Source: Calditrichia bacterium
GTDB lineage: Bacteria > Calditrichota > Calditrichia > Calditrichales > J004
Assembly (NCBI GenBank): GCA_027006055.1
Contig: JALTKX010000260.1
Location: 1-35,613 of the forward strand
Length of the DNA: 35,613 nt
Direction: 5' to 3'
The translations under genes were made by a program, and so were the position numbers. Below, one piece after another: positions 1-22,908 of this stretch (position 1 is its first letter; each line of letters starts with the position of its first letter). The notes under the pieces are model-generated. The model was not told the origin of the DNA, did not search any database, and saw nothing but the letters and a program-made list of their open reading frames with translations.

Positions 1-1076
1 GGTACCATGTTTTTATTTACGGTAATACCGGCGGCATGCAGGGCGTTTTCGGCCGCCTTGCCGGTAATGCCCTTATTGCTCAGATCCACAAGAAAAACAT
101 GATTATCGGTTCCGCCGGAGACGATATCATAACCCTTCTCCACCAAAGCGGCGGACAGAGCGGCGGCATTATCAATTATCTGCCGTGCATATTTTTTAAA
201 TTCCGGTTTCAGGGCTTCGCCGAAGGCCACGGCCTTGGCAGCAATGATGTGCATCAGCGGTCCGCCCTGGATGCCGGGCATCACCTGGCTGTCGATCAAC
301 TCCGACCAGTTTTTAACCCGACCGCTTTTAGGAGCGATTTTACCAATGGTGTTTTCCGCATCCTTACCCATCAAGATCATGCCGCCGCGCGGCCCGCGCA
401 GGGTTTTATGGGTGGTGGTGGAGACCACATCACAATAGGGTATGGGGCTGGGATGCACTCCGGCGGCCACCAGTCCCGCGGGATGGGCGATATCGCAAAA
501 AAGAAAAGCGCCGACGGCGTCCGCTATTTCACGAAATTTGTCAAACTCATAATGGCGGGAATAGGCCGAGGCGCCGACGACGATCATCTTCGGTTTATGC
601 TCACGGGCCAGTTGGGCCACCGTATCCATATTGATACGTCCGCTTTCTTTATCCACGCCATAGGAAACAAAGTTAAACAACCGACCGGAAAAGTTAACCG
701 GAGAACCGTGCGTCAGGTGTCCCCCATGGGACAGGTCCATGCCCAGAATGGTATCTCCCGGATTAAGGAAGGTAAAGTAGACCGCCATATTGGCCTGGGA
801 GCCGGAATGGGGCTGCACATTGGCGTACTCGCAGGCAAACAGCTCCCTGGCACGGTCTCGGGCCAGGTTTTCCGCCTTGTCCACAAATTCGCAGCCGCCG
901 TAGTACCGCTTGCCGGGGTAACCCTCGGCATATTTATTGGTCATCACCGAACCGGCCGCTTCCAGAACCGCCGTGGAAACAAAGTTTTCCGAGGCGATCA
1001 GCTCAATGGTATTGTTTTGTCTTGCTTTTTCCGCTTCAATAAAAGAAAACAACTCCGGATCCTGCTGCGCTAACAT
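1..1076 (-). CDS. glyA: Serine hydroxymethyltransferase (C-terminus cut by window edge)
   Basis: This PLP enzyme interconverts serine and glycine while charging tetrahydrofolate with a one-carbon unit, in the cytoplasm. I read about 358 codons in one open frame; the family is about 415-430 residues, so only the C-terminal part is missing. Visible hallmarks are ELIASENF near residue 30, the substrate-loop sequence [17 protein letters not shown], and the PLP-lysine motif [16 protein letters not shown]. Two ATGs occur (1082 and 1076); I chose 1076 because AAAGGAG lies 6 bases before it, whereas the upstream ATG touches the ribosome site. That ribosome site overlaps the rpiB stop codon, so the two genes are probably translationally coupled. 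rpiB-glyA proximity is known from other bacteria such as Bacillus. Identification is secure. Confidence 0.97.
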
Positions 1077-1087
1077 CTTCATCTCCT

Positions 1088-1528
1088 TTACAATCCGGTT
1101 AAAGTGGTAATCAATTTCAGTCTGTTTTCATGCCGTCCCCCTTCAAAGGAGGTGTTTAGCCAAACATCCACCATTTCCAGGGCCAGTTTTTCTTCCAGCA
1201 CGCGGCCGCCAAGGCACAACACATTGGCGTTGTTATGCAGTCTGCTCATGCGCGCCGTTTCCAGGCTGTGTACCAGGGCGGCGCGGATGCCTTTTACCTT
1301 GTTGGCCGTTATACTCATCCCTATGCCCGTGCCGCAAATCAGGATGCCGTAATCCACCTCGCCGTCGGCCACGGCCTTACTGACCTTAAGGGCATAATCG
1401 GGATAGTTGACCGACTCTTCCTTAAAGGTGCCGTAATCCACAAAGTCCAGCTTTTTCTCTTCCAGATGCTTAATTATGGCGGACTTCAATACATAGCCGG
1501 CATGATCCGATCCGATTCCAATTTTCAT
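1088..1528 (-). CDS. rpiB: Ribose-5-phosphate isomerase B
   Basis: This enzyme interconverts ribulose 5-phosphate and ribose 5-phosphate in the non-oxidative pentose phosphate pathway. The 146-residue length is typical of the RpiB/LacAB family. It opens with [11 protein letters not shown], where Asp8 and His9 are family active-site positions. Cys65 lies in the GTGIGMS anion-binding loop and acts as the catalytic base in characterised homologues. His98 sits in [14 protein letters not shown]. It lies 11 bases downstream of the TPR gene and runs into the glyA ribosome site, placing it late in the long minus-strand gene set. A LacA/LacB-type galactose-6-phosphate isomerase is an alternative family member but less likely given the neighbours. 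Confidence 0.96.
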
Positions 1529-1539
1529 GAAAGTACCCG

Positions 1540-2793
1540 TTATTTAATGAAACTATAGCAATCGCTTGTTATTTTGATTCCCGGGTTCATAAACTTATCT
1601 TCCTTGGTGCGGATATACGGCTTAAGGTTGTTGTACTTATTACGGGCCTTTACTTTAACGGAAAGGTCTTTCATCGCTTTTTTATACTGCGCCTGGGCGC
1701 GTTCATAAACAAGCTTGTCTTCCAGCTCCGTTTTATTGCTGCCCCGTTTTTTCTGGCAAAAAAGAACGGCGGTTTCGTACAACTCTCCCTTTGCGATGTA
1801 AGCGGCGCCGTAACCGGGCTTTTTGGCCAGGACCTTATTAATCCAGTTGTTTGCCGTTTTCAAACTGCCGGCGGAAGAGTAGTTATAGGCTATTTCCAGC
1901 ATAATATCCAGATTGTCCGGCTCCAGTTTAAGCCAGGCTTTTAAATCCGCAATGGCCTTGGAATATTGTTTTAGGTTAGAGTACGCCAGGGCACGATATT
2001 TATAGTCGTCCGCCTTGGGGTCTTTATTTATGACGGCCGTTAGCGGTTCAATGGCTTCCTCAAAAGAACCTTCCACAACCGCTTCCTTTCCGTAACTACG
2101 CGCGGCCTTGATATTGTTATGATCCTTTTTAAAAGCTTCGCGCCATACTTCTATGGCCGAGCCCAGCAGAGCCTGGGTATAGGAACCCAGCTTTTCGGCA
2201 GCCTTAACATCATCGGGATAGAGTTCGGTTACTTTTTGCTGAACTTCTATGGCTTTTTCATCTCCGACACGGAAATAAAGCAGGGCCAGCTCCTGCATAT
2301 AGTTTTTATTTTTGGGGTTTTGCTTAACCAGGCTCTCATAATGAGGAATGGCGCATTTGTAACGTCCCAGCTTATTTTCCAGATAACCGGCATAATAGTG
2401 CAGTTTCTGCTGATCCGGGAAAACTTTTAAACCGATGTAGCAGGCCAGCAGGCTGCTATCGGCCTTTTGTTTTTTAAAATAGGCTTCGGCAATTTTACCA
2501 ATCGCACGGTTGGCGTATTTACCGCTGTCGTTGTAAAACACTTTCCACAGGTAAGGAAGCGCCGCGTCATAATTTTTATTTTTTTGATGCTCGCTGCCGA
2601 AACTGTACCACCTTTTCACGTCCGTGGGCGTCTCGGCGGTTCCCTTGTAAGCTTCAAAAGGTACGGTTAAAGTATCCGGGATACACTTAACCTCTTCCTG
2701 CGTATCCATTTCCTCTTCATCATCCAAAAGCAACTCATCCTGAGCCAATGCCATCAGGGGAAAAAGCAGCAGTAATAACCAAAGGTATCTCAT
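1540..2793 (-). CDS. Exported TPR-repeat protein
   Basis: The first ~17 residues form a Sec signal peptide (Leu-rich core, likely cleavage after ALA), followed by an acidic stretch (DDEEEMDTQEE). From about residue 60 to 320 the sequence is a series of 34-residue TPR units with recognisable G-x-Y/A-x-A and P-x-x-x patterns, for example the unit around LAYSNLKQYSKAIADLKAWL. TPR arrays are protein-binding scaffolds, so a periplasmic partner-binding role is inferred; no enzymatic domain is visible. The start is fixed by a perfect AAGGAGGTG ribosome site whose first bases include the stop codon of the beta-barrel gene. It forms a tight trio with the barrel protein and the lipoprotein upstream. 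Precise function is unknown. Confidence 0.85.
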   Translation of the reverse strand: MRYLWLLLLLFPLMALAQDELLLDDEEEMDTQEEVKCIPDTLTVPFEAYKGTAETPTDVKRWYSFGSEHQKNKNYDAALPYLWKVFYNDSGKYANRAIGKIAEAYFKKQKADSSLLACYIGLKVFPDQQKLHYYAGYLENKLGRYKCAIPHYESLVKQNPKNKNYMQELALLYFRVGDEKAIEVQQKVTELYPDDVKAAEKLGSYTQALLGSAIEVWREAFKKDHNNIKAARSYGKEAVVEGSFEEAIEPLTAVINKDPKADDYKYRALAYSNLKQYSKAIADLKAWLKLEPDNLDIMLEIAYNYSSAGSLKTANNWINKVLAKKPGYGAAYIAKGELYETAVLFCQKKRGSNKTELEDKLVYERAQAQYKKAMKDLSVKVKARNKYNNLKPYIRTKEDKFMNPGIKITSDCYSFIK

Positions 2794-2802
2794 AGCACCT
2801 CC

Positions 2803-4005
2803 TTAATTTTCAATATTTACAAACCATAATTCATTTGCGCTGATGCTCAGGCCCAGGCGAAGAACCCATTCCTGTAGATTGTTTTGAGTCAAATCGCCCC
2901 GTTTGGATACATTCAGGTATAGATCCAACTTTGAACGAAAGCGTGTTAAGGGAAAGCTTGCCCCCAGTGAAGCGCCGATTTCCTTAACGGCGGTCTTGTT
3001 CAGTTCAAACGGAAGCTGACTGTAAAACATTCCAACGCGCCAGTCTATAAGACGGGAGTAATTTACAAAGCGCCTCGGGCTTCCCGAGCGCTCCAAACCG
3101 ATACCAAGGCGGTAAAACGGCACATAGCCCGGGGTTGTACTCCCATCCGTCTTATATCCGTTTTGCCAATCCTGGTATATAAAATCGGCGCCCAAAGAAT
3201 AACGATCTATTCCATTATATTCAAATCCAAAATTGTATTCGGCCGGCAACTGAACGGAAAGCTCCGAGCTGCTGTTCAATCCCGTCGAGGGCGTATCTCC
3301 TGAGCGGGTAACGGTGGCCTGTACGGCGGGACGAAGCAAAAGGCCCAGCTCGAAACCGTCAAACGGTTCCGCGTGCAGGCTAAGGGCCACGCCATGCCCG
3401 TTCAACTGATTGCGGTAGGTAAAATTCAGACGGCTGGCAAAATTGTCATCAATGTCCAAAAGTACCTGCTCGCTTACCAGGCCAAAGGTATATTCATAAC
3501 CCAGGCTTACGGAAAGACGCTCCATCATCTTCCAGGCCATCATGATATTGGCCCGGGACAAACCGCCGTGCATGTAAATATTTTGGGTGGCTTCATTGGT
3601 ATCCACCAGGGCGATGGTTTTCAGCCTTTGCTCAATGCCGGTATAGGGCTGGATATTCAGTCCGAGTATCCATTTACGCGGCTTAATGGGAATCCCGAGA
3701 GCGGCGCCCTTAAAGTTGGCGTTATCCAGTTGGCTTGTGCGTGTTTGGTTTTGGGCATATAAAACGCCATACTCGCCATTCACCGTAAGCGTCGTGTAGG
3801 GCAGGCCGGTCCAGGCGGCAAAGTTGCGGTAGTTCAGCTGTAGGGAATCCCTGGCCGCAATGCCGAATGAACGTCCGAGACCCTTGGCGGAATAGGGTGT
3901 AAGGATATTTCCAAAACTGTTTTCCGCCAAACCGAAATAGGACTCTCCGGCAAACAGCGGCGAAACCATCAACAGGGCCAGGGTAATGAAATGTCTTTTT
4001 TTCAA
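2803..4005 (-). CDS. Outer-membrane beta-barrel protein (PorV/FadL-like)
   Basis: An N-terminal signal peptide (KKRHFITLALLMVSPLFAG) precedes about 380 residues of alternating hydrophobic/polar strands with aromatic girdles, as in PorV/PorQ and FadL-like barrels of the FCB group. The segment GLGRSFGIAARDSLQLNYRN resembles the common motif in which such proteins describe a Gly-rich N-terminus followed by D-S-x-x-x-N. The start codon is TTG at 4005; no ATG gives a complete signal peptide, so the TTG is supported by content rather than by a strong ribosome site. It lies 18 bases after the lipoprotein gene and ends in the ribosome site of the TPR gene. Its cargo or transport role is not evident; family assignment is by pattern only. 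Confidence 0.72.
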   Translation of the reverse strand: MKKRHFITLALLMVSPLFAGESYFGLAENSFGNILTPYSAKGLGRSFGIAARDSLQLNYRNFAAWTGLPYTTLTVNGEYGVLYAQNQTRTSQLDNANFKGAALGIPIKPRKWILGLNIQPYTGIEQRLKTIALVDTNEATQNIYMHGGLSRANIMMAWKMMERLSVSLGYEYTFGLVSEQVLLDIDDNFASRLNFTYRNQLNGHGVALSLHAEPFDGFELGLLLRPAVQATVTRSGDTPSTGLNSSSELSVQLPAEYNFGFEYNGIDRYSLGADFIYQDWQNGYKTDGSTTPGYVPFYRLGIGLERSGSPRRFVNYSRLIDWRVGMFYSQLPFELNKTAVKEIGASLGASFPLTRFRSKLDLYLNVSKRGDLTQNNLQEWVLRLGLSISANELWFVNIEN

Positions 4006-4023
4006 GGTAGTTATCCCAACTTT

Positions 4024-5151
4024 TTATTTTTCAAGATACTTGACGATTAACATCGGTTTTTGCGCGCTTTGTTGCCCGAAAAACCTTATCACGGAAAACA
4101 CATCCGATTCCACGGCATATTCAACGGAAAACCATTTGTGTTCAAGATTTTCATTTACTATCGATTGCACGATCTGGCTGGCAAAGCCGGACTGGTTGCT
4201 TATTTTTGTTGCCGTACCCTTTTCCGTTATCACATATGTTGAAGAGGGGTTTTCATTTTCCGCCGCCTCGTCATCAAACATGCGCAGGGTAAATGCACCC
4301 GGTTTATTCGGATTGGTATAGGGAAACGCATCGTCATAGGGAATAACCAGGTCCGCGTTATAATAAATCGCCCGTGTCGATAGCTGTGTAAAATCAAAGC
4401 GTACCAGATAGTGCCGGGGGATACCGCTGGCCACATAACGTCCTTGCGGAGAAAAAACCGTTCCGTTTATTTCGTCATAGCTAAAAATGGAAGCGTCATT
4501 GGTTGCCGTTACCGTATCGCTCGTGTCCTTATAGCTGTATATCAACCTGGGCGGCTGGGTGGACTGCAGGGAATTAAACTGAAGTACCATATTTTGAACC
4601 GAAGGGTTTAAGGTAAAATACAAACCCGTATTCAGGGAGTCGGCGCTTTGCCATTTTTTCAGCAAATCCATATCCAGCGCTATGTTGCTCTCGGCGGAAT
4701 CGGCCACCATCATGCTAACCGTTTTTAGGTAGGTACCCGGCGGTGCATCGTGCCAGGCGGCTTTTTCATTTATAATCGTTGTGGCGTCCCACACCTCGTT
4801 AACCTCGTAAATATCCACCAGTACCTCCTGGGGATCGCTGCCAAAGTGGCCCTCGGTAATAAAGTTCATTTTTATCTCTTTGAGGGTAAGCGTATCGTCG
4901 GGCAGGGTTAAATAGCGTACAACAAAGCCCGATGTAAATCCGGCCATATTGGCCAGGGTCAGGCTGCCGGCGTTATTGGTATTTACCGTATCCGCCACAA
5001 CCACGGAATCCAGTACGGCGTAGAGGGTATCTGTTTTAAATTGTCCGTAGCGGTTTGCATTATAGTCGGGATTGGCCACAAAATCCGGATCATTACTGCT
5101 ACAGGCAACTATTGTCAGCAACAGGGCCGCGGATAATATTTTTTTCATCAT
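4024..5151 (-). CDS. Surface/periplasmic lipoprotein, DUF4270- or DNRLRE-like
   Basis: The start is taken at 5151 (or the adjacent ATG at 5148) because the stop of gmhB and AAAGGA lie just before it; the longer frame would run deep into gmhB. The product of 375 residues begins with a lipoprotein signal ending LLLTIVAC, with Cys as the lipidated residue. The mature part has two similar beta-rich halves, each ending in a short segment like PRLIYSYK or KPMLIVKYLE, as in DNRLRE-type domains. Its opening, with 'LDSVVVADTVNTNNAGSL', is reminiscent of Bacteroidota DUF4270 lipoproteins, which I recall being encoded next to glycogen synthase; here glgA is two genes upstream. Function is unknown and the family link is tentative. 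Confidence 0.7.
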   Translation of the reverse strand: MMKKILSAALLLTIVACSSNDPDFVANPDYNANRYGQFKTDTLYAVLDSVVVADTVNTNNAGSLTLANMAGFTSGFVVRYLTLPDDTLTLKEIKMNFITEGHFGSDPQEVLVDIYEVNEVWDATTIINEKAAWHDAPPGTYLKTVSMMVADSAESNIALDMDLLKKWQSADSLNTGLYFTLNPSVQNMVLQFNSLQSTQPPRLIYSYKDTSDTVTATNDASIFSYDEINGTVFSPQGRYVASGIPRHYLVRFDFTQLSTRAIYYNADLVIPYDDAFPYTNPNKPGAFTLRMFDDEAAENENPSSTYVITEKGTATKISNQSGFASQIVQSIVNENLEHKWFSVEYAVESDVFSVIRFFGQQSAQKPMLIVKYLEK

Positions 5152-5156
5152 TTCCT

Positions 5157-5732
5157 TTAACTCGAATGTGGTTTGCATATTTTTTTTGCCGCTTCCAGTA
5201 AGTTTTCGGCCACCATGTCCGGCGGCCGCGTCCATTGTTCTTTTTGATGTGTATATTCACCGCGGCCATAGCCGCTTAAAACCATAACCGTTTTTAAGCC
5301 CATCTTACGGCCAAACTCCATATCCTTATACCGGTCTCCAATCATCAGGGATCGGCTCAGGTCGATATCCAACTCATCGCGCGCCTTTTCCAGCATGCCG
5401 GTTTTCGGTTTTCTGCAGTTACAGTCCCGGTCATATTTTTTTACCGGCGCTCCCGGAAGATGCGGACAATAATAAATTTTATCTATTTCCGCTCCGGCTA
5501 TCCGGGCCTCATCCATCAATGTTTTATGCACGGCGCGTAAAAGCTCTTCGGAAAAATAGCCCCGCGCCAACCCGGCCTGGTTGGTTATAACAATAATTTT
5601 ATAACCACATTCCTTTAATAACTTGATGGCTTCAAAGGTAAATGGAAATATCTTAAAGCGGGAAATGTGGTTAATGTACCCCATTTCCTCGTTAATGGTT
5701 CCGTCGCGGTCCAGAAAGATGGCTTTTTGCAT
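5157..5732 (-). CDS. gmhB: D-glycero-D-manno-heptose 1,7-bisphosphate 7-phosphatase
   Basis: This HAD-superfamily phosphatase removes the 7-phosphate of heptose bisphosphate in the pathway to ADP- or GDP-heptose for lipopolysaccharide or glycan synthesis. The 191-residue length is typical. HAD motif I is FLDRDGT (Asp8 nucleophile, Asp10 acid/base), motif II is ITNQAG, and motif IV is IGDRYKDME (Asp133, Asp137). The zinc-binding loop characteristic of GmhB is present as Cys89, His91, Cys104 and Cys106. The ATG at 5732 has no Shine-Dalgarno; it lies four bases after the U-tract of a hairpin that follows glgA. A histidinol-phosphatase (HisB N-terminal) relative is the main alternative, but no his genes are nearby. 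Confidence 0.92.
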   Translation of the reverse strand: MQKAIFLDRDGTINEEMGYINHISRFKIFPFTFEAIKLLKECGYKIIVITNQAGLARGYFSEELLRAVHKTLMDEARIAGAEIDKIYYCPHLPGAPVKKYDRDCNCRKPKTGMLEKARDELDIDLSRSLMIGDRYKDMEFGRKMGLKTVMVLSGYGRGEYTHQKEQWTRPPDMVAENLLEAAKKICKPHSS

Positions 5733-5766: not shown

Positions 5767-7236
5767 TTACTCTCCCGTTACCCGTTTATATATATCCAGA
5801 TAACGCTGTGCCGAAATATCCCATGAAAAATCCTCCGCCATTATCTGTTTTTGAACGGCGCGCAGCTTTTCCTTATCATTGTATAAGTCAATGGCCCGGC
5901 GCGTTGCCTCCACCAACGAAGCCGCGTCCAGCTTTTCCATAACAAAGCCGGTGCCGTCTTCTATGGTTGGGTCATAGTCTTCCACCGTATCCAGCAGGCC
6001 GCCGATGGGTGACACCACGGGCAGGGTGCCGTAACGCAGGCTGAAAATCTGATTAAGGCCGCAGGGTTCATAGGTGCTGGGCATAAGGTAAATATCCGCC
6101 CCCGCTTCAATCAGGTGAGCGATTTTATCATCGTAGGTTACGTTGATACTCAACTGACCGGCATAGGTTTTCTGAGCCTCCATCAGCGTGTTGGCAATTT
6201 CCGGGTCGCCTTCACCCATAATACATAGCTGAACATCCATCTTCATAATTTCGGGCAGGGCCTCTATCAAGATATGCAGCCCCTTTTGTTTTGTCAGCTT
6301 GGAAATCATGCCCAACAGGGGGCGGCCTTCCCTGTATTCCAGCCCCAGGCGCAGGAGCAAGGCTTTCTTGTTTTCCTCCTTGCCCTCGATTTCCTCAAAA
6401 GAGTACTTGGTCGGCAAGGCCTTGTCTTTTTCCGGCGTCCATACGGTATAATCCACACCGTTCAGGATTCCTTCGAAGAACTCACCTTTTTCCTCCAGCA
6501 GCTTACCAAAACCATAACCGATTTCATCGCGTTCGATGATCTCATCCGCGTAGTTTTCCGAAACCGTGGTTATAAAATCGGAAAAATAGATGGCGGCCTT
6601 TGTCAGGTTCAACTGGCCATCCTTACCGAACATGCCATCTTCCTTAACTTCGTTTTCATCAAAGTCGATTTGTTTGGCCACCGATTTATCAAAGGCGCCC
6701 TGGTTTGTCAGGTTGTGCAGGGTATAAACGGTTTTAATGCCTTTAAAAAACTCTTCTCCCTGATACAGGGTTTTCAGGTAAACCGGAACATAGGCGGTTT
6801 GCCAGTCATTGCAATGGATCAGGTCCGGCTGCCAGGAAAGGGTTTTTAGCGTTTCCATGGCCGCCTTAGCAAAAAAGGCATAACGGATCGCATTGTCTTC
6901 GTAAGGTTCGTTGGTATGCGGATCATGATAGATGCCCGGCTTGTTAAAGAAATCCGCCACTTCGATGAAATATATCTGTACTTTACTTTCGGGTAGAAAT
7001 GCCGACTTAACGTTGGCCAGCTCCGTGCGCCCATTGATGGTTACGGGAATATTTCTCAAACGGATGACCTCACGCAAAACATATTTCCGTTCGTTGATAA
7101 ATTTATACTTGGGCATCATAATACGGATTTCCTGATTGAGATCCTTTAATGATTTCGGCAGGGCGCCCGTAACATCACCCAGTCCGCCGGCACGGGCAAA
7201 CGGTGTCACTTCTGAAGCCAGGTATAAAATCTTCAT
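5767..7236 (-). CDS. glgA: Glycogen (starch) synthase, GT5 family
   Basis: This glycosyltransferase extends alpha-1,4-glucan from a nucleotide-glucose donor. At 489 residues it matches bacterial GlgA. It has the N-terminal GT5 domain (ILYLASEVTPF, the glycine loop RAGGLGDV, HCNDWQTAYVP around residue 140) and the C-terminal GT domain (SKLTKQKGL, MPSTYEPCGLNQ, LRYGTLPVV). The ADP-glucose loop, K-x-G-G-L in E. coli, has Arg in place of Lys here; this conservative change also occurs in other GlgA lines, so activity is expected. The start ATG lies 10 bases after the galT-like gene, suggesting cotranscription. A hairpin terminator follows immediately. The donor (ADP- or UDP-glucose) cannot be decided from sequence alone. 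Confidence 0.96.
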   Translation of the reverse strand: MKILYLASEVTPFARAGGLGDVTGALPKSLKDLNQEIRIMMPKYKFINERKYVLREVIRLRNIPVTINGRTELANVKSAFLPESKVQIYFIEVADFFNKPGIYHDPHTNEPYEDNAIRYAFFAKAAMETLKTLSWQPDLIHCNDWQTAYVPVYLKTLYQGEEFFKGIKTVYTLHNLTNQGAFDKSVAKQIDFDENEVKEDGMFGKDGQLNLTKAAIYFSDFITTVSENYADEIIERDEIGYGFGKLLEEKGEFFEGILNGVDYTVWTPEKDKALPTKYSFEEIEGKEENKKALLLRLGLEYREGRPLLGMISKLTKQKGLHILIEALPEIMKMDVQLCIMGEGDPEIANTLMEAQKTYAGQLSINVTYDDKIAHLIEAGADIYLMPSTYEPCGLNQIFSLRYGTLPVVSPIGGLLDTVEDYDPTIEDGTGFVMEKLDAASLVEATRRAIDLYNDKEKLRAVQKQIMAEDFSWDISAQRYLDIYKRVTGE

Positions 7237-11057: not shown

Positions 11058-11978
11058 CTATTCCGATTGAAAATCCAAAATGGCCTTTTTTAACAACCCT
11101 TCATTTTTCTCGATATACTTTTTGGCTATATCGGCTGTTTGCCCTGTTTTTGCCATAAAAATAGCCGTTTTTACATGTCCGTTTGCTTCGTCTAAATACC
11201 GGGCCGCTTCATCATAATCCACGCCGGTGGCCGACATGATGATTTTCTTCGACCGTTCCACAAGCTTAACATTGTTCAACTGCAGGTCGATCATCATATT
11301 TTCATATACCTTACCCAACTGGATCATGGAGGCGGTGGTAAGCATATTCAAAACCATCTTCTGGGCAGAACCCGCCTTCAGGCGGGTGGAACCCATAACC
11401 ACTTCCGGGCCGGGTACCGGACAAATAGCCACATCCACTTCAAACTGTAACTGTTCCCGGGGGTTACATACAACCGCCAGTGTTTTGGCGCCGCGCTTTT
11501 TGGCTTCTTCAATGGCGCCAAGGACATACGGCGTGCGCTTGCTGGCCGCGATGCCACACAAAACATCTTTTTCATTCAAATCTATGGAGGCCACATCTTT
11601 GGCCCCGTTTTCAGGGAAATCCTCAAAACCCTCCACCGCCTGATACAGAGCCTCTATGCCGCCGGCAATCAACCCGACAACCATGCCGTTCGGCACACCG
11701 AAAGTCGGGGGACATTCCGCCGCATCCAAAACCCCCAGCCTGCCGGATGTCCCGGCCCCGGCGTACACAAGCCTTCCGCCGTTTTTAAAGGCATGGGCTA
11801 TTATTTTAACCGCTTCCGCGATATAGGGTATTTCCTTTTCAACCGCGGGAGCCACCTTTTGATCTTCCCTGTTCATCAAAACCAGCATCTCTTTCACGGG
11901 CAATATGTCAATATCGGTTGTCAGCGGATTTCTACTTTCCGTTACCAGCGAGGCCAATTCATCAAATACCGTCTTCAT
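11058..11978 (-). CDS. murQ: N-acetylmuramic acid 6-phosphate etherase
   Basis: MurQ cleaves the lactyl ether of MurNAc 6-phosphate to GlcNAc 6-phosphate and D-lactate in cell-wall recycling. The 306-residue length matches the family. The SIS domain carries the signature RLVYAGAGTSGRLGVLDAAE at residues 69-88, with Glu88 in the position of the catalytic acid. The second motif, GPEVVMGSTRLKAGSAQKM, is also present. The ATG at 11978 overlaps the end of rsmG by 17 bases, and an AAAAAGG sequence precedes it. No murP, anmK or nagZ is adjacent, so the recycling partners lie elsewhere. The regulatory protein GKRP and GckR-like SIS proteins are distant relatives but lack this full signature. Confidence 0.96.
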   Translation of the reverse strand: MKTVFDELASLVTESRNPLTTDIDILPVKEMLVLMNREDQKVAPAVEKEIPYIAEAVKIIAHAFKNGGRLVYAGAGTSGRLGVLDAAECPPTFGVPNGMVVGLIAGGIEALYQAVEGFEDFPENGAKDVASIDLNEKDVLCGIAASKRTPYVLGAIEEAKKRGAKTLAVVCNPREQLQFEVDVAICPVPGPEVVMGSTRLKAGSAQKMVLNMLTTASMIQLGKVYENMMIDLQLNNVKLVERSKKIIMSATGVDYDEAARYLDEANGHVKTAIFMAKTGQTADIAKKYIEKNEGLLKKAILDFQSE

Positions 11979-12633
11979 CCTTTTTCCCTATAATTAAATA
12001 TTTTCTATGCGCCAAATAATCTCCCAGGGCAAGCCACGCATCCCCGGGCTCTACAACACGTAAAGCATGGCCGGAAAGGCCTACCATCTCCCGTTCATAA
12101 TCCCGACCCTTTATAACATGCAGCTGCCCCCCATCCCTTAACAAAGGAAACGCATACCGCACCAACAGGGGCAGCGCGGCCAGGGCCCGGGCCGTAACAA
12201 TATCAAAACTTTTAAAAAAGCGGGGCTCCAGCCGCTCAATCCGTTCATTTACCACAGTATAGGAAAGAGAAAGCTCTTCTTTAACTTTTTTTAAAAACAA
12301 GGTTTTCTTTCTAACACTCTCCAACAGAACAATATCATTTTCAGGAAAAACAATAGAAAGAATAACACCGGGCAACCCCCCGCCCGTACCCATATCCACC
12401 AGTCGCGCCCGCGGCGGAAAGAGCGTCAAAAGGTTTTTCACATAAAAAAAACACTCCAAAAAATGCCTTCTCACCAGATTGCCTCTATCCGCGGCGGAAA
12501 CCAGACTCATCCTACCCGAATAGGTATACAACATCGAGGCAAAACCTTCCAACTGCAAAAATTGTTTTTCCGAAAGCCCTATTCCCTGGCTCTCAAGAAA
12601 CTCATTAAGACTTTGTAGCGAGAGCTGTTCCAC
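11962..12633 (-). CDS. rsmG: 16S rRNA m7G527 methyltransferase
   Basis: RsmG (GidB) methylates N7 of G527 in the 530 loop of 16S rRNA using S-adenosylmethionine. The 223-residue length is usual. The SAM-binding motif DMGTGGGLPG is at residues 80-89, followed by the acidic ribose-binding region LLESVRKKT and by DIVTARALAALPLL. The start codon is GTG at 12633; this matches the homologous N-terminus (helix SLQSLNEFLESQGI) and no better start exists. The first codons overlap mnmG by 29 bases, and the GTG itself lies inside a parS-like site. The mnmG-rsmG order is conserved in many bacteria; the usual following parA-parB pair is replaced here by murQ. Confidence 0.96.
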   Translation of the reverse strand: MEQLSLQSLNEFLESQGIGLSEKQFLQLEGFASMLYTYSGRMSLVSAADRGNLVRRHFLECFFYVKNLLTLFPPRARLVDMGTGGGLPGVILSIVFPENDIVLLESVRKKTLFLKKVKEELSLSYTVVNERIERLEPRFFKSFDIVTARALAALPLLVRYAFPLLRDGGQLHVIKGRDYEREMVGLSGHALRVVEPGDAWLALGDYLAHRKYLIIGKKDEDGI

Positions 12634-14494
12634 GTGAAACGCCCGTCTTTTTAAACTTGTCTATATAGATCATCAATACGGAGATATCCGAAGGCGTGAC
12701 TCCGCTTATGCGCGATGCCTGTCCCAGACTTCGCGGCTTTAAAAGCGAGAGCTTCTCCCGGGCCTCGGCAGATAAAGCCTCGATTTTTTCATACTCAAGC
12801 TCCGCCGGTATCGTAAGGGATTCCGTCTTTAAAAACTTCTCCATCAGCGCCGCCTGCCGCTCCAGATAGCCGGCATACTTTACACCGAATTCAACATCCA
12901 GAATGGCGCTATCCATATAGTCTGCCGTATTAACCAGAGACAACAACCCCTTTAATGATACCTCGGGGCGCTTTAGCAGTTTTTCAACAGAATGGTTTTG
13001 TTTTACCGGCGTTGACAGCCCCCCATATAAGCGATTAAAATCTTCCATGGATACTTTTCGACCAAGAACATCTTTTTTCAAAGCTTCGATTTGTTCCCGG
13101 CGGCGGATCATTTTCTCATAAGCCTTTTCATCAACAATACCCAGGGAACGCGCCTCATCCATTAACCTCAGGTCGGCATTATCCTGCCGCAACAACAAGC
13201 GGAACTCAGCCCTGGAGGTAAACATTCTATACGGTTCCTCATGAATCTTGTTTATAAGGTCATCGATCAGAACACCGATATAAGCCTGTGATCTTTTTAA
13301 TACAAACGCTTCCCTGCCGGTAAGTTTAAGAGCGGCGTTTATGCCGGCCATCAGACCCTGGGCCGCCGCCTCTTCATAACCCGAAGTGCCGTTTATTTGA
13401 CCCGCAAAATAAAGATTGGCCACCGGCTTTGTTTCAAGGCTTGCCTTCAATTGATCCGGAGGAAAAAAATCATACTCCACGGCATACCCCAGGCGCACTA
13501 TCCTACACTTTTCCAACCCCCTGACCGTGCGAATGGCCCTTTCCTGAATTTCCGCGGGAAGGCTGGTGGAAAAACCATTAACATACACTTCCCGGTTGTG
13601 ATACCCTTCCGGTTCAAGAAAAAGCTGGTGGCGGTTCTTATCGGCAAAACGGTCTATTTTATCTTCAATGGAAGGACAATACCTTGGGCCCACGCCTTTT
13701 ATACGCCCGGTAAACATCGGCGAGGCATCAAACCCCTGGCGCAGAATATCATGGGTCTGCTCATTGGTGTAACCTATAAAGCAGCTGATCTGCCTTCTGT
13801 CGATTTTATCTGTGGAAAAAGAAAAAGGTTGCGGCTTTTCATCCGGCTTTTGTTCTTCCATAACAGCATAGTCGATATAATCGCGGTGTATTCTTGGCGG
13901 GGTTCCTGTTTTCAATCTCCCCGTTCTGAACCCAAGGGCGGATAAGGTTTCACTCAACCCCTTGGCAGGCAAGTCGCCGGCCCGACCCGCGGCCAGGTGA
14001 TTTAAACCGACATGAATGATGCCGTTTAAAAAAGTGCCCGCTGTTAAAATTACGGCCCTTGCAAAAATCCGGCTTCCACAAGAAAGTACAACGCCCTCAA
14101 CCCGGTCGGAAGCTGTTATAATATCATTAACCCGCCCCTCAATAAGTTCCAGGTTTTTCAACCTGTTTAAATACCCCTGGGCCACCCGGGCATAATAGGG
14201 ACGGTCCGCCTGGGCCCTTGGCGATTGAACAGCCGACCCCTTGGAGGTGTTAAGCATTTTAAAATGAATACCGCTGTCATCGATAATCTTACCCATCAGG
14301 CCGCCGAGGGCGTCCACTTCCCTGACAAGCTGCCCTTTTGCCAGACCGCCGATGGCCGGATTGCAGGACATCAAACCGATTTTTTTCCTGTCCAGGGAGA
14401 TAAGAGCCGTGGACATACCCATCCTGGCGGCAATATTAGCGGCTTCAATTCCGGCATGACCGCCACCTATAACTACAATATCATACTTTTTCAT
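12605..14494 (-). CDS. mnmG: tRNA uridine 5-carboxymethylaminomethyl modification enzyme, FAD subunit
   Basis: MnmG (GidA) works with MnmE to place the cmnm5 group on the wobble uridine of certain tRNAs, using FAD, glycine or ammonia, and a folate-bound carbon. The 629-residue length is standard. The dinucleotide motif VIGGGHAG occupies residues 8-15, followed by SCNPAIGGLAKG. The region GPRYCPSIEDKI carries a conserved Cys, and INGTSGYEEAAAQG is the second FAD signature. The C-terminal helical domain ends in the RISGVTPSDISVL motif. The ATG at 14494 has no Shine-Dalgarno; the bases just upstream are instead a parS-like palindrome. mnmE lies 19 bases upstream, so both partners are made from adjacent genes. 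Confidence 0.97.
   Translation of the reverse strand: MKKYDIVVIGGGHAGIEAANIAARMGMSTALISLDRKKIGLMSCNPAIGGLAKGQLVREVDALGGLMGKIIDDSGIHFKMLNTSKGSAVQSPRAQADRPYYARVAQGYLNRLKNLELIEGRVNDIITASDRVEGVVLSCGSRIFARAVILTAGTFLNGIIHVGLNHLAAGRAGDLPAKGLSETLSALGFRTGRLKTGTPPRIHRDYIDYAVMEEQKPDEKPQPFSFSTDKIDRRQISCFIGYTNEQTHDILRQGFDASPMFTGRIKGVGPRYCPSIEDKIDRFADKNRHQLFLEPEGYHNREVYVNGFSTSLPAEIQERAIRTVRGLEKCRIVRLGYAVEYDFFPPDQLKASLETKPVANLYFAGQINGTSGYEEAAAQGLMAGINAALKLTGREAFVLKRSQAYIGVLIDDLINKIHEEPYRMFTSRAEFRLLLRQDNADLRLMDEARSLGIVDEKAYEKMIRRREQIEALKKDVLGRKVSMEDFNRLYGGLSTPVKQNHSVEKLLKRPEVSLKGLLSLVNTADYMDSAILDVEFGVKYAGYLERQAALMEKFLKTESLTIPAELEYEKIEALSAEAREKLSLLKPRSLGQASRISGVTPSDISVLMIYIDKFKKTGVSRGTALATKS
12626..12641. other. 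parS-like ParB-binding site 1
   Basis: The plus strand reads TGTTCCACGTGAAACG, which matches the parS consensus TGTTTCACGTGAAACA at 14 of 16 positions and keeps the CACGTG core. It spans the end of mnmG and the GTG start codon of rsmG. The site at 14495 reads almost the same on the opposite strand (15 of 16 bases), which makes chance unlikely. Confidence 0.8.
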
Positions 14495-14510
14495 GGTTTC
14501 ACGTGGAACA
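14495..14510. other. parS-like ParB-binding site 2
   Basis: The plus strand reads GGTTTCACGTGGAACA, matching the parS consensus at 14 of 16 positions. On the minus strand it is TGTTCCACGTGAAACC, the same as site 1 except for its last base. It touches the mnmG start codon and occupies the place where a ribosome-binding site would be expected. Confidence 0.82.
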
Positions 14511-14513
14511 CGT

Positions 14514-15884
14514 TTATTTGCCTATACAAAACTTAGAGAAAATATTATTCAAAATTTCATCGGTGGTTACGGCGCCGGTAAATGCCCCAAGCGTATCAAT
14601 AAGAGAGCGGAAGTCTATCGCTAAAAATTCCGGCCCCGTTTTCGCTTTGGTTGATTTTATGGCGCGTTCCGTTTGTTCCCTTGCCTTTTTTAAAAGATTA
14701 TAGTGCCGGATATTGGTAACGATATTTGTATGTTGATCGCTTAAAGTGTTTATCTTTCCGGCAATTTCTTTCTTCAATAAATCAATGTTTGTTTTTTTCG
14801 TTGCGGATATCTTTACCGTTGGAGTCTCCGGGAAATATTTCCCTATCTCGCTTATTGTTTCTTCTTTTACTTTTTTGTCTGTTTTATTCACCACGGCAAT
14901 AAGGTTTGTGTTAAAGTTTTTTACCAGGTTTATGATACTTATATCTTCTTCGTCGAGGGGGCGGGAACCATCAAAAATAAAAAGTATAAGATCACTTTCG
15001 CCAATGAGTCCCTTGGCACGTGAAACACCCTCTTTTTCGATTGACTCTGCCTTATCGCGAATACCCGCGGAATCTATCAGACGTACAAAGGTATCGTCTA
15101 TTATAATATCTTCGTGAATATGATCCCTGGTGGTTCCGGGGGTGGAAGATACGATAACTCTTTCCCTGTTTATAAAGGTATTCATAATGCTGGACTTACC
15201 CACATTTGGTTTTCCGAGAAGCAAAATCTGAATAAGGTCGGAAACCGATTTGCTCGATTCATAGGAGTCTATCAGCTTTATAATTTCTTTCAACACCTTT
15301 TGTAGATGCAGAACTATTTTATCGTAGGGAATAATTTCAATATCTTCTTCGGAAAAATCTATTTCCAGTTCAACCAGGGAAGCCAGGTTTATAAGTTCTT
15401 TTTTTAGTTCGTTTATTTTAACGGACAGGGAGCCGTGTAGTTGCTTTAAGGAATTTTTTACCGCCCGCCTGCTTCTGGAGGCAATAATGTCGGCAACGGC
15501 TTCCGCCTGTATTAAGTCTATTTTTGAATTTAAAAAAGCCCTTTTGGAAAATTCTCCCGGCTCGGCCAGCCGGCAACCTTTTTCCAAAAACAGACTTATT
15601 ATTTCTTCGGTTATAAAAAAATTGCCATGACAACTAATTTCAATAACATCTTCACCGGTATAGGAATGGGGCGTCCTAAAAACATAGACTATAACATCAT
15701 CTATGGTTTCATTATTTTTTTTAAGCTGCCCGTGGTAAAACCGCCCCCCTTCCGAAGAAATAATCTCTCGTGAAAAAAAACCATCCACCAGTTCAATAAC
15801 GCCATTGCCGGAAAGGCGAATCAAATTGACACTACCCCCCTGGGTCGCGCTTATGGGTGCAATTATGATATCGCTGTTATCCAT
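14514..15884 (-). CDS. mnmE: tRNA modification GTPase
   Basis: MnmE (TrmE) is the GTPase partner of MnmG in wobble-uridine modification. I chose the ATG at 15884 (456 residues) over an upstream TTG at 15890, as it starts directly with the family N-terminus (DIIIAPISA). The N-terminal folate-binding domain is followed by a helical domain and an inserted G domain: P-loop GKPNVGKSS near residue 225, switch region STPGTTRD, DSAG, and base-recognition NKTD. The C-terminus ends FCIGK, the family hallmark whose Cys is needed for modification. It lies 9 bases after yidC and 19 before mnmG. The protein is complete with all GTPase motifs intact. Confidence 0.97.
   Translation of the reverse strand: MDNSDIIIAPISATQGGSVNLIRLSGNGVIELVDGFFSREIISSEGGRFYHGQLKKNNETIDDVIVYVFRTPHSYTGEDVIEISCHGNFFITEEIISLFLEKGCRLAEPGEFSKRAFLNSKIDLIQAEAVADIIASRSRRAVKNSLKQLHGSLSVKINELKKELINLASLVELEIDFSEEDIEIIPYDKIVLHLQKVLKEIIKLIDSYESSKSVSDLIQILLLGKPNVGKSSIMNTFINRERVIVSSTPGTTRDHIHEDIIIDDTFVRLIDSAGIRDKAESIEKEGVSRAKGLIGESDLILFIFDGSRPLDEEDISIINLVKNFNTNLIAVVNKTDKKVKEETISEIGKYFPETPTVKISATKKTNIDLLKKEIAGKINTLSDQHTNIVTNIRHYNLLKKAREQTERAIKSTKAKTGPEFLAIDFRSLIDTLGAFTGAVTTDEILNNIFSKFCIGK
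15012..15027. other. Possible degenerate parS half-site inside mnmE
   Basis: The minus strand reads TGTTTCACGTGCCAAG: the first 11 bases equal the parS consensus and the other arm is degenerate (12 of 16 overall). It lies within the mnmE coding sequence, 500 bases from site 2. Weak on its own; reported because it clusters with two stronger sites. Confidence 0.35.
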
Positions 15885-15893
15885 TATCAAAAC

Positions 15894-17633
15894 TTATTTT
15901 TTCTTTTTTCCCGATGGCTTTTTAACCGTAGGTTTTATCTCTTCATCATCAACATGAATATATTTTTGTTGAACTATCGTCAACAAGTTGAACAGAGTAT
16001 AATAAAGGTTCAATCCTGAAGGAAACCGGTTAAAAAGCACAAGCATAAACAGGGGCATCATATAGATCATGGATTTCTGCTTGGGATCCTGCATAGTCAT
16101 TTTAGATTGGAAGAACATGGTCAGGGCCATTAAAACAGGAAGCAGATTAAATTCATTTCCATAAAACGGAAGCGAAACCGGCAAAGTAAACAAAGCTTCC
16201 GAGGTAGATAAGTCATTGATCCAACCGGGAATAAACATTGCTCCTCTTAACTGTATGGTAGACTTAAAAACCTGATATAAGGCAAATAACAAAGGCATCT
16301 GTAAAAGCATGGGCAGGCAACCGGACATGGGATTGCCGTGTTCCTTATACAGCTTCATCATTTCTTTTTGTTGCCTCTGTTGATCGTTTTTATATTTTTC
16401 CTTTATCTCATTCATCAAAGGCTGCATTTTTTGCATTCTTTTTTGACTTTGATAACTATGCTTGGTAAGCGGAAAAAGAATCAGTTTGACCATTATGGAG
16501 AAAATTATAATCACCAGACCATAATTGGGAATAAAAGAATTCAACCATTCCAATACCGGTAATATTAAATAGCGGCTTATGGGACGGAAAATACTCCAGC
16601 CATCACTCATAATAAGTTCGTCAAGGCTGTTGTCATAGTGAGCCAATTCCTTATAATCCAGAGGCCCTATATAAATACTAAATCTATCTTCGCTTCCGGC
16701 TTTTACATAATAGCCCGCATTATAATATTTATAAAGTATTTCATTTTTCTTTACGCCAAAGCCATTAAAAAAAACACCTTCGGAAACATCCGCTTTCCTG
16801 GCCACAATGGCGGACACAAAATATTTATTTCTAATGGCAATCCATTCGGCAATACCGGAAAAATCCTCCTGTTCGGCAACGCCCTCTTCATCTATTTTGT
16901 AAGGTTCCAGTTCATCCGCCATATAGGCAAAGGCTTCGTTATAGGTATAATCATCTTCTATATAGGCTTCCGTGGCAGGTAAACCGTTTTTCCATATCAA
17001 TTGATAGGAACGGTTTAAAAACAATTCTTCAGGATGAGAAACAGAGACCCCCAAATCAAAATGATAACGGTTATTATAAAAGGTAAATCTTTTTTTAATT
17101 ATTCCATCTTTTGTATTCAGGGAATACTCAAGAACAAGAGAATCTTCATTCTTTAAAGTATACTCTCCCTGCTTGTCCACGGAGAAAAGCATCTTATCCA
17201 GCTTAACAAAATCTCCCTCCATGTTCTGAAAAGAAATATTTATACCATTTTTTATTTCCTCGGAAACAAGCTCCACCAAGCTGGAATCATAGGTTTTATA
17301 TTGTGTTAACTGATAATGTAATAATGATCCGCCACCCCGGTTACTTATCACAAGATTATACTTATCCGTGTTTATTGTAATGACCTTCTCAATACTGTCA
17401 CCCCTGGCATTGGAAAGGGTTTCCTTAATCGTTTCCCCTTTTTCTATTTCGGGAAGGGGCTTTTCTTCCGTTATTATTTTTTCCGGGGCCGGAGAAGGTT
17501 CAACTTCCGCGGGTTTTTCGATCACCTCGTTTTTTTGTTCAGGCTTTATTCCCAGAACATATTCATTGTAATAAGGCATCAACACTATAATTATGGCAAC
17601 AATAATCATTGCCAAAAAACTTTTTTTGTCCAT
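15894..17633 (-). CDS. yidC: Membrane protein insertase YidC
   Basis: YidC inserts and folds inner-membrane proteins, alone or with SecYEG. The frame opens at a GTG inside rnpA (17648), but I chose the ATG at 17633 (579 residues, MDKKSFLAM) as it begins exactly at TM1. After TM1 comes a Lys/Glu/Pro-rich linker and a large periplasmic beta domain (about residues 75-345), as in Gram-negative bacteria. The conserved 60KD_IMP domain covers about 360-560, with SGCLPMLLQMPLLFALY. In the first segment of that domain a Lys (IMVKLILFPLTK) stands where E. coli has the groove Arg366. The tail is Lys-rich (KKPSGKKKK), suiting ribosome contact. It follows rnpA with the start 7 bases past the rnpA stop. 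Confidence 0.96.
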   Translation of the reverse strand: MDKKSFLAMIIVAIIIVLMPYYNEYVLGIKPEQKNEVIEKPAEVEPSPAPEKIITEEKPLPEIEKGETIKETLSNARGDSIEKVITINTDKYNLVISNRGGGSLLHYQLTQYKTYDSSLVELVSEEIKNGINISFQNMEGDFVKLDKMLFSVDKQGEYTLKNEDSLVLEYSLNTKDGIIKKRFTFYNNRYHFDLGVSVSHPEELFLNRSYQLIWKNGLPATEAYIEDDYTYNEAFAYMADELEPYKIDEEGVAEQEDFSGIAEWIAIRNKYFVSAIVARKADVSEGVFFNGFGVKKNEILYKYYNAGYYVKAGSEDRFSIYIGPLDYKELAHYDNSLDELIMSDGWSIFRPISRYLILPVLEWLNSFIPNYGLVIIIFSIMVKLILFPLTKHSYQSQKRMQKMQPLMNEIKEKYKNDQQRQQKEMMKLYKEHGNPMSGCLPMLLQMPLLFALYQVFKSTIQLRGAMFIPGWINDLSTSEALFTLPVSLPFYGNEFNLLPVLMALTMFFQSKMTMQDPKQKSMIYMMPLFMLVLFNRFPSGLNLYYTLFNLLTIVQQKYIHVDDEEIKPTVKKPSGKKKK

Positions 17634-17640
17634 TGTATTT

Positions 17641-18304
<664 letters not shown>

Positions 18305-18348
18305 TTAATAACATTCATAAATTTATATTTTTCAAATACTTATAATAG

Positions 18349-18388
18349 TTATCCACGAATTCACATCCCCTATATACTATTATTAACT
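18349..18388 (+). other. DnaA-trio-type unwinding element (BUS-like)
   Basis: TTATCCACG (18349-18357, one mismatch to the DnaA box) is followed directly by a degenerate box AATTCACAT, a short CCCC run, and then CTA-TTA-TTA (18377-18385). This order of box, weak box, C-rich spacer and triplets of A-N-T type on the complementary strand is that of the basal unwinding system described in Bacillus subtilis. AT-rich DNA follows. The element points toward dnaN. Similarity was judged by eye. Confidence 0.6.
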
Positions 18389-18408
18389 TTTAAATATATA
18401 TTTATAAT
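18380..18408 (+). promoter_or_regulatory. Possible dnaN promoter
   Basis: A perfect TATAAT lies at 18403-18408, about 84 bases before dnaN. At a 17-base spacing the -35 position reads TTATTA, a poor match. It overlaps the trio/AT-rich tract, so DnaA binding could affect it. The region is so AT-rich that chance is possible. Confidence 0.35.
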
Positions 18409-18491
18409 ACTATCAATATAAAACAAAGCGTTGTAAACCTTGAAAATTTGCCATGTTTTGTTTAGCTTTTCCTGTTTATCTGGGAGGAAAA

Positions 18492-19607
18492 ATGAATTTT
18501 AAAATTGAACGAGATCATTTCTTTAGGGTATTACAAAAGGTAATCAGTGTCATCCCTACAAAATCAACGGTGGAGATTCTCTATAATGTGCTTATCCAGG
18601 CTAAGGATTCTCGCTTATCCATAACCGCCACCGACCTTGAAATCACACAGATTGCCTGGACCGATTGCTCCGTGGTGGACCCCGGTGAAATAACGATTCC
18701 GGGAAAAATATTGCTGGATATTATCCGCGAGCTGCCCAATGTGGAAATTGAATTTAACGCCGACGAGAATAATAAGATTTTAATAAAATCCGAATTAGGT
18801 GAGTATAAACTTTCCGGCGAGAGTAAAAACGAATATCCGTCTTCTCCTCAGATAGAGTCCGATAATAAAATAAACATATCCAATGACGCCTTGAAGCATA
18901 TGATTGAAAAAACAATCTTTGCCTGTTCTTCCGATCATTTCCGTCCGGCGCTGACGGGTGTGTATTGTCAGTTTTTTGAAAATGAATATCGCATGGTTGC
19001 CACGGATGGACACCGGCTTGTGAAACTGGTTAATCCCTCCGTTACCTCTACCTTTACGAAGGATATAATTATCCCGACCAAGGCGCTTAATTTTACCGCC
19101 CGTAATTTAAAAGAGGGAGAAGAACATCAGATAACAATCAGTGAAAACCATATCCTGTTTGAATTGCCGGATACCCATATTTACTCCAGAATAATTAAAG
19201 AAAGCTATCCGGACTATGAACGTGTTATCCCGGCTTCGTTCACAAAGGAAATGAAAATAAACAAGAATGATTTTATTTCTTCGGTCAAGCGTGTTTCGCT
19301 TTTTTCAAACCCAATAACCTCGCAGGTACGTTTGCGCCTCGAATCAAATGTACTTCAGGTCTCCGCCCAGGATATTGAGTTTGGCGGCGAAGCCAATGAA
19401 CATATTCCCTGTTCCTTTGAAAGTGAACCTTTGGAAATAGCCTATAACGCCAATTACCTGTTGGATTTACTAAGACATTTTGATAGCGACAGGATAAGAA
19501 TGACTTTTAATGATTCCGATAGTCCTGCCCTGATATATCCCGATGAGGATAATCCCAGGGAAATCGACCTTGTTATGTTGATTATGCCGGTGCGAATTAA
19601 CAGTTAA
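18492..19607 (+). CDS. dnaN: DNA polymerase III beta subunit (sliding clamp)
   Basis: The beta clamp encircles DNA and tethers polymerase III and repair proteins. I chose ATG 18492 (371 residues) as GGAGG lies four bases before it and the product then begins MNFKIERDHF as the family does; the 13-residue upstream extension of the frame lacks support. Typical clamp features include SVIPTKSTVEILYNVLI, ATDLEITQ, the TDGHRLVKL segment near residue 170 and the C-terminal MLIMPVR, a variant of the conserved M-P-M/V-R end that forms part of the peptide-binding pocket. It is the first gene rightward of the origin and its TAA overlaps the recF ATG by one base. Confidence 0.97.
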   Translation: MNFKIERDHFFRVLQKVISVIPTKSTVEILYNVLIQAKDSRLSITATDLEITQIAWTDCSVVDPGEITIPGKILLDIIRELPNVEIEFNADENNKILIKSELGEYKLSGESKNEYPSSPQIESDNKINISNDALKHMIEKTIFACSSDHFRPALTGVYCQFFENEYRMVATDGHRLVKLVNPSVTSTFTKDIIIPTKALNFTARNLKEGEEHQITISENHILFELPDTHIYSRIIKESYPDYERVIPASFTKEMKINKNDFISSVKRVSLFSNPITSQVRLRLESNVLQVSAQDIEFGGEANEHIPCSFESEPLEIAYNANYLLDLLRHFDSDRIRMTFNDSDSPALIYPDEDNPREIDLVMLIMPVRINS

Positions 19608-20710: not shown

Positions 20711-20975
20711 CATCGGGCAGGTGTTGGCAAAGATCATAGATAAAAATAATGTGCCTGTTTCCTGGGAACTGGAGCATATTAAAACCCACTGGAACAGTCT
20801 GGATGCGATATTGATAAAACAGGCCGAGCCGGTTAAATATTTTAGCCGTACCCTGATTTTGAAAATTGCGGACCCCGTATGGAAGGAAGAATTCGAAAAA
20901 AATAAGGAATCCGTTATCCTAAGAATTAGAACAAACCTGCGGGGTATAAAAGTAGAAAATGTTGAATTTATATAA
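20691..20975 (+). CDS. dciA: DUF721/DciA-family protein, candidate helicase loader factor
   Basis: The 94-residue product begins MRKRYVNIGQVLAKIIDKN and shows the DUF721 pattern: a short N-terminal helix (IGQVLAKII), a W (HIKTHWNSL, where the family has W-x-x-I/L-V-G), and a beta region ILKIADPVWKEEFEKNKESV near residue 60. DciA is the ancestral bacterial factor that helps load the replicative helicase DnaB. I took ATG 20691 rather than 20670, as it begins at the conserved part; it overlaps recF by 20 bases. Position between recF and gyrB is the same as reported for DUF721 genes in Actinobacteria. The assignment rests on position and pattern; the domain is poorly conserved. Confidence 0.78.
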   Translation: MRKRYVNIGQVLAKIIDKNNVPVSWELEHIKTHWNSLDAILIKQAEPVKYFSRTLILKIADPVWKEEFEKNKESVILRIRTNLRGIKVENVEFI

Positions 20976-20980
20976 AGTAA

Positions 20981-22903
<1,923 letters not shown>

Positions 22904-22908
22904 GACTT

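Follow-up and report, generated by a model that had tools for sequence, protein, structure and literature searches.

The minus strand of the window, by which we mean the whole 35,613-nucleotide stretch analysed here (contig JALTKX010000260.1 of the Calditrichia bacterium assembly GCA_027006055.1), carries a compact operon of three genes. Two of them probably specify those components of a Bacteroidota-type beta-barrel assembly (BAM) machine that lie in the outer membrane and at the cell surface, and the third specifies an exported tetratricopeptide repeat (TPR) protein that would serve this machine from the periplasm. In order of transcription the genes specify a 375-residue BamH-like surface lipoprotein of the DUF4270 type, corresponding to the BAM canopy (4024-5151), a 400-residue BamG-like outer-membrane barrel of the FadL family that starts with TTG (2803-4005), and a 417-residue exported TPR protein that we propose as a periplasmic BAM-associated factor (1540-2793). 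In October 2025 BamG and BamH were described as an extracellular canopy on the BAM complex of Bacteroidota, whose core is BamADGH; BamG is bound behind BamA, the canopy of BamH covers the folding site, and both proteins have been reported from six of seven other FCB phyla (PMC12611786, PMC12578637). The initial annotation of this DNA had suggested an undescribed outer-membrane transport or assembly complex; assembly is the function we favour, but the barrel and the lipoprotein are the published BamG and BamH, and only the TPR partner is undescribed. The BamG-BamH pair thus belongs to a known type of system, present here in a lineage for which no detailed description was found; what is new is an operon variant with a TPR gene, whose product makes a good candidate for a BAM partner not yet described. 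In the open-licence PMC literature, exclusive of bioRxiv, we found no paper joining Calditrichota, the outer membrane and beta-barrel assembly, and since 2024 BamG appears, among the matches listed, only in the two papers above, without tetratricopeptide; the words TPR and tetratricopeptide are absent from the main texts of both. What the data show is homology, predicted fold, export signals and conserved linkage; BAM action in Calditrichota and the role of the TPR protein are inferred.

The barrel matches the NCBIfam BamG model NF053685 over residues 41-396 (E 6.9e-50, 170.2 bits), and its sequence alone finds the solved BamG chain 9n2d_B (E 1.6e-17, aligned over 23-397). The profile of its family finds three solved BamG chains (E 1.3e-45, 4.1e-34 and 1.4e-27), with the FadL-family protein TodX next at 1.8e-4, and on these sequence comparisons we regard the barrel as a BamG homologue within the FadL family. 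It has a signal peptide at its N-terminus and ends in ...ELWFVNIEN; the second-best NF053685 match in the same genome reaches 62.6 bits, leaving the window gene as the sole strong copy. An acidic C-terminal tail of this kind is present in most members of families f1, f2 and f4 (NIEN, NLED and similar endings) and was considered as a docking peptide for the TPR protein, an idea that was dropped because the tail is absent from families f3, f5 and f6, all of which also have the TPR gene.

The lipoprotein is BamH as judged by the full-length fold of its predicted structure, though the Pfam model falls short of it. An AlphaFold2 model (18 sequences, pLDDT 86.9) resembles the BamH chains 9hjm_G (Z 21.0, root-mean-square deviation 6.4, 327 residues), 9n2d_C (Z 19.8, 5.9, 334 residues) and 9his_G (Z 18.2, 6.0, 335 residues); Foldseek alone returned 9hjm_G (E 1.5e-13), and the other two were added by further fold comparison. 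The next match after the BamH chains is a chondroitin-binding carbohydrate-binding module (CBM; Z 13.7) that covers residues 51-207 only, and PMC12611786 gives this module as the closest in fold to F. johnsoniae BamH. The likeness to DUF4270 that had been noticed in this protein holds for its relatives, for its fold and for its family profile, in that a profile of 28 lipoprotein relatives matches P. gingivalis BamH (9hjm_G, labelled 'DUF4270 domain-containing protein') with an E of 2e-5, but not for the window protein by itself, which matches neither DUF4270 nor CBM96 of Pfam at E <= 1 and gave no convincing match in a sequence search of the PDB. Among the 28 relatives, DUF4270 (PF14092) touches six (best E 1.4e-4) and the DNRLRE-like CBM96 three (best E 5.2e-7). 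Relatives from the same class reach at most 23.2 bits against a DUF4270 cut-off of 27, apart from a second, Bacteroidota-type copy in genome G011. The N-terminus carries a lipobox (...TIVAC) followed by SSNDPDF, so that two acidic residues lie within six after the cysteine (CSSNDPD); this satisfies the rule of PMC12578637, by which surface lipoproteins have at least two. At least two acidic residues within seven are found in 20 of 34 family members, against 5 of 27 lipobox-like open reading frames (ORFs) taken as background. As a separate observation, G011, a Calditrichota metagenome-assembled genome that also has the normal operon, carries its second copy as part of a further bamH-bamG pair of Bacteroidota type (G011:C15, loci L081 and L209; NF053685 306 bits, DUF4270 105 bits), which could be contamination, a transfer or a BamGH2-like pair.

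The third protein has a signal peptide ending in ...LMALAQ, scores 58.8 bits with TPR_14 (Pfam cut-off 23.5) and is predicted to form a TPR superhelix with helices throughout residues 45-402 (pLDDT 90.4). Across the Calditrichota alignment it has the highest mean column identity of the trio (46%, the other two having 41% and 30%), and four of its cysteines are invariant (C37, C147, C346 and C412). The export signal differs by lineage: Calditrichota and most members from the Bacteroidota-like phylum defined below have a signal peptide that is cleavable, whereas most of the other lineages have a lipobox. No specific family or fold emerged from NCBIfam, solved-sequence and fold searches, which return generic TPR proteins; MamA and PrsT-type TPR proteins share the superhelix, but against MamA the score is 77.7 bits with a cut-off of 200. 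The 19 NCBIfam families that it matches at E <= 0.1 do not include TIGR03302 (BamD/YfiO), and the best 50 matches of the TPR searches contain no BamD or BamP chain, the latter absence carrying no weight either way. We reject the protein as a replacement for BamD, because BamD is encoded elsewhere in the same genome (G000:C4:15434-16129, TIGR03302 138 bits, cut-off 81.4) and a BamD gene scores over the cut-off in 40 of 40 Calditrichota genomes. Variants of the gene were seen at several other loci: it stands in two tandem copies behind bamG in a lineage outside Calditrichota (L178:1696-4293), paralogues lie right behind a YceI-domain gene in two Calditrichota genomes (L135:2043-4004 and L141:9189-11275), and a further paralogue adjoins a protein with a Por secretion tail (L126:9980-13326), which points to a type 9 secretion system (T9SS) in Calditrichota.

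The initial annotation described three export-targeted proteins packed behind glgA and gmhB with a ribosome site among them, and this arrangement stands. All lie on the minus strand, 18 bases separate the lipoprotein from the barrel gene and 9 bases the barrel from the TPR gene, and the sequence AAGGAGGTG (2804-2796) reads as a Shine-Dalgarno site of the TPR gene (minus strand, 2796-2804) that lies within the 9-base gap and overlaps the stop codon of the barrel gene. Upstream are gmhB, a heptose bisphosphate phosphatase gene 5 bases from the lipoprotein gene (5157-5732, minus strand, NF006506 E 2.9e-52), and the glycogen/starch synthase gene glgA (5767-7236, minus strand, TIGR02095 E 2.8e-158, over its cut-off); downstream are rpiB (1088-1528, minus strand, PF02502 E 1.6e-61) and an ORF truncated by the end of the window (3-1082, minus strand) that we take to be glyA from our own reading of the sequence, with no family search behind the name. 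All four are neighbours conserved in relatives.

For comparison, bamG loci were gathered from Calditrichota (35), from other lineages, meaning genomes that share only the domain label (31), and from what we call the Bacteroidota-like phylum (33), that of genome G101, which appears to be Bacteroidota from its DUF4270 matches, from BamG scores over the cut-off and from a Bacteroides control; each count below covers only loci with enough flanking sequence. Loci with no usable bamG are left out of the denominators (L073, L090, L093 and L100 from Calditrichota, L182 and L187 from other lineages), L081 and L084 were kept out of the Calditrichota set, and L247 was scored as having no TPR neighbour although an earlier model gave a weak overlapping match. 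The TPR model used for adjacency includes ten members from other lineages; that used for genome-wide searches was built from Calditrichota only. In Calditrichota 33 of 33 loci carry bamH immediately before bamG, and 31 of 31 carry the TPR gene immediately after it. The median gaps are 11 and 20 bases, respectively, and the trio is packed beyond chance; no fusion among the three genes occurs in the ORFs of the fetched loci. Downstream glyA is likewise present in 21 of 21 and rpiB in 15 of 21, and upstream glgA in 14 of 27. Of the 23 Calditrichota genomes with a completeness of 90% or more, 22 give strong matches to all three genes and G009 lacks all three; that genome is 97% complete, has no strong match to any of them and may reflect loss of the operon or an assembly gap. 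The three genes co-occur in relatives and the lipoprotein has a structural match to DUF4270, the two points on which the initial annotation had staked its suggestion. In G014, where strong bamG and bamH matches are missing, the closest relative of the TPR gene is followed on the same strand by a patatin-POTRA-Omp85 gene (L084:3805-7453).

Outside Calditrichota the linkage is looser. In other lineages and in the Bacteroidota-like phylum, bamH is directly upstream of bamG in 25/31 and 20/33 loci, the TPR gene directly downstream in 10/29 and 12/33, glyA downstream in 11/27 and 6/31, rpiB in 7/27 and 3/31, and glgA upstream in 4/26 and 19/33. Full or near-full copies of the operon occur in L173, L178, L244 and L285, and also across L192 and L198, two contig ends of one genome; L174 and L246, from two other lineages, have bamD close to bamG. 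The Calditrichota-only TPR model has matches at E <= 1e-15 in 45 of 118 Bacteroidota-like genomes, in 38 of which the best match genome-wide is the gene beside bamG; it lies elsewhere in six, and in G244 the best match is on another contig end and the second is beside bamG. First-look TPR candidates number 14 to 61 per genome in these 45, and our binomial estimate for the adjacency used a rough 6-kb target and is not to be taken as a formal test. In the 27 of 118 genomes with no BamG match at E <= 1e-30, none has a TPR match at E <= 1e-15; these genomes come mostly from one family (f192), and the Fisher test of BamG/TPR co-occurrence counted genomes as independent. Three loci keep the TPR gene with bamG in the order coaX-bamG-TPR, with bamH, glgA, rpiB and glyA not there (L302, L304 and L314), and seven others read glgA-bamH-bamG-TPR with neither rpiB nor glyA (L286, L293, L294, L296, L297, L299 and L307); the names coaX and lptC come from a family search in one locus (L302) and elsewhere from our own reading.

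Because the window proteins are homologous to the solved complexes, BamG and BamH may be given the same roles in Calditrichota. By analogy, the FadL-like BamG would be placed at the back of the barrel of BamA, a protein described in Bacteroidota with extended loops, and would keep the surface lipoprotein BamH in position; the crescent of BamH would overhang the site at which BamA inserts new barrels, and the exported TPR superhelix would act in the periplasm, either binding BamG, BamD or the POTRA domains of BamA or feeding them substrates. With the Bacteroidota BamADGH structures (PDB 9n2d, 9hiv/9his and 9hjm) the system shares BamG by sequence, BamH by fold, a BamD in the genome, and the lipobox followed by acidic residues on BamH. 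It differs in that bamH and bamG form one operon here, whereas the main copies in F. johnsoniae and B. thetaiotaomicron lie apart by the locus tags given in the papers, and in that an exported TPR gene stands behind bamG in Calditrichota. The BamG2-BamH2 pair of B. thetaiotaomicron (Bt1785-Bt1786) also joins a barrel and a lipoprotein in one putative operon, but it is dispensable and was undetected in the proteome (PMC12578637), whereas the window pair is the only strong copy and has a TPR gene in addition. BamG and BamH have been known only since October 2025, and for the canopy outside Bacteroidota a conserved third gene beside bamG, recovered across lineages by a model from one phylum, is a concrete candidate partner.

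Several points weigh against a BAM operon with a TPR partner. The barrel falls below the 250-bit equivalog cut-off of NF053685, and for this reason we name it a BamG homologue and not an equivalog; 250 bits is a naming threshold, reached in 45 of 118 Bacteroidota-like genomes where 91 have matches at E <= 1e-30. No TPR match at E <= 1e-15 was found in 46 of those 91 BamG-bearing genomes, and the TPR protein is therefore not essential to the machine everywhere; nor is such a partner reported in the complexes purified from F. johnsoniae, B. thetaiotaomicron and P. gingivalis. Paralogues of the TPR gene adjoin a YceI gene or one for a T9SS-sorted protein, and of the known BAM subunits, which also include BamA and the accessory BamM, BamP, BamI, BamJ and BamK, those covered in Calditrichota are BamD, BamG and BamH. 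Moreover, rpiB and glyA are as tightly linked as the TPR gene, and so operon membership alone is no proof of contact. It is accordingly quite conceivable, if somewhat short of an even chance, that the TPR protein has a housekeeping function in the periplasm and never touches BAM, its gene simply riding along in the operon as rpiB and glyA do; the equal closeness of those enzymes, the modest adjacency outside Calditrichota and the published complexes, which have no TPR protein, would all agree with this, but the gene stays beside bamG in the ten loci in which the enzymes are not present, and its product bears the export signal required of a BAM partner. That the barrel instead imports hydrophobic compounds as other FadL-type proteins do, or works as a PorV-like shuttle, with the lipoprotein and the TPR protein as its helpers, is hard to credit. 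BamG does belong to the FadL family, the family profile touches TodX, and bamG in L246 adjoins a gene with a weak likeness to PorV/PorQ (36 bits against a cut-off of 90); nonetheless, the BamG chains are far ahead of the FadL-family chains (E 1.3e-45 versus 1.8e-4), and the full-length fold of the neighbouring lipoprotein fits BamH alone.

The proximity of glgA invites another reading, in which the surface complex is functionally tied to glycogen or glucan metabolism and the carbohydrate-binding-like domain of BamH senses or binds glucan. The adjacency itself, stated in the initial annotation for Bacteroidota, is clearly present: DUF4270 matches occur in 39 of 118 Bacteroidota-like genomes, and a glgA-type gene lies immediately upstream on the same strand in 27 of the 30 DUF4270 (BamH) loci returned, the exceptions being L210, L231 and L237, of which the last two have the lipoprotein gene and then bamG. 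A check of one glgA-type neighbour gave a 275-residue Glyco_transf_5 protein (E 1e-55); on the downstream side one neighbour proved to be a glutamine-amidotransferase/SIS protein, which we read as glmS. The glgA-DUF4270 adjacency would thus either predate the separation of these phyla or have been rebuilt repeatedly. GlgA, however, is a cytoplasmic enzyme, and glgA is missing from 13 of the 27 Calditrichota loci with room for it, the 14 with glgA being all those of families f1, f2 and f4 and the 13 without it belonging to f3, f5 and f6. The flanking genes change from locus to locus (gmhB, rpiB, glyA, glmS, coaX and lptC), and since they encode unrelated enzymes whose presence varies, we prefer to read the glgA-gmhB-rpiB-glyA surroundings as an ancient operon order that is slowly being lost, and not as a sign of glycogen biology. 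Neither glycogen nor glgA is mentioned in the texts of the two BAM papers (PMC12611786, PMC12578637), and the open-licence PMC literature held nothing joining DUF4270 with glycogen synthase or BamH with glgA. The functional link that had been proposed between glycogen synthesis and a surface complex is therefore very improbable, even with the great depth of the glgA-bamH adjacency and the likeness of BamH residues 51-207 to the chondroitin-binding CBM, noted for F. johnsoniae BamH too (PMC12611786), in its favour.

Returning to the BAM operon with a periplasmic TPR partner, we offer tentatively, and with a little less than even confidence, the broader proposal that several FCB phyla share an ancestral BAM machine with the TPR protein as an undescribed subunit in the periplasm, and that an order glgA-(gmhB)-bamH-bamG-TPR-(rpiB)-glyA was later broken up in classical Bacteroidota. 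In such a break-up bamH would have kept glgA, bamG would have moved beside coaX and lptC, and many lines would have lost the TPR subunit, whose place other accessory subunits, BamP for example, may have taken. The common operon order suggests an early bamH-bamG neighbourhood, and would account for the adjacency of glgA and DUF4270 with no recourse to glycogen biology.

Elsewhere in the window (11962-25374), rsmG, mnmG, mnmE and yidC lie on the minus strand and dnaN, a recF-like gene, gyrB and gyrA on the plus strand; the two sets diverge near 17.7-18.4 kb, an arrangement that is frequent around a replication origin. Further along, at 30730-32754, a cyclophilin-type peptidyl-prolyl isomerase domain forms the C-terminal part of a HEAT-repeat protein.

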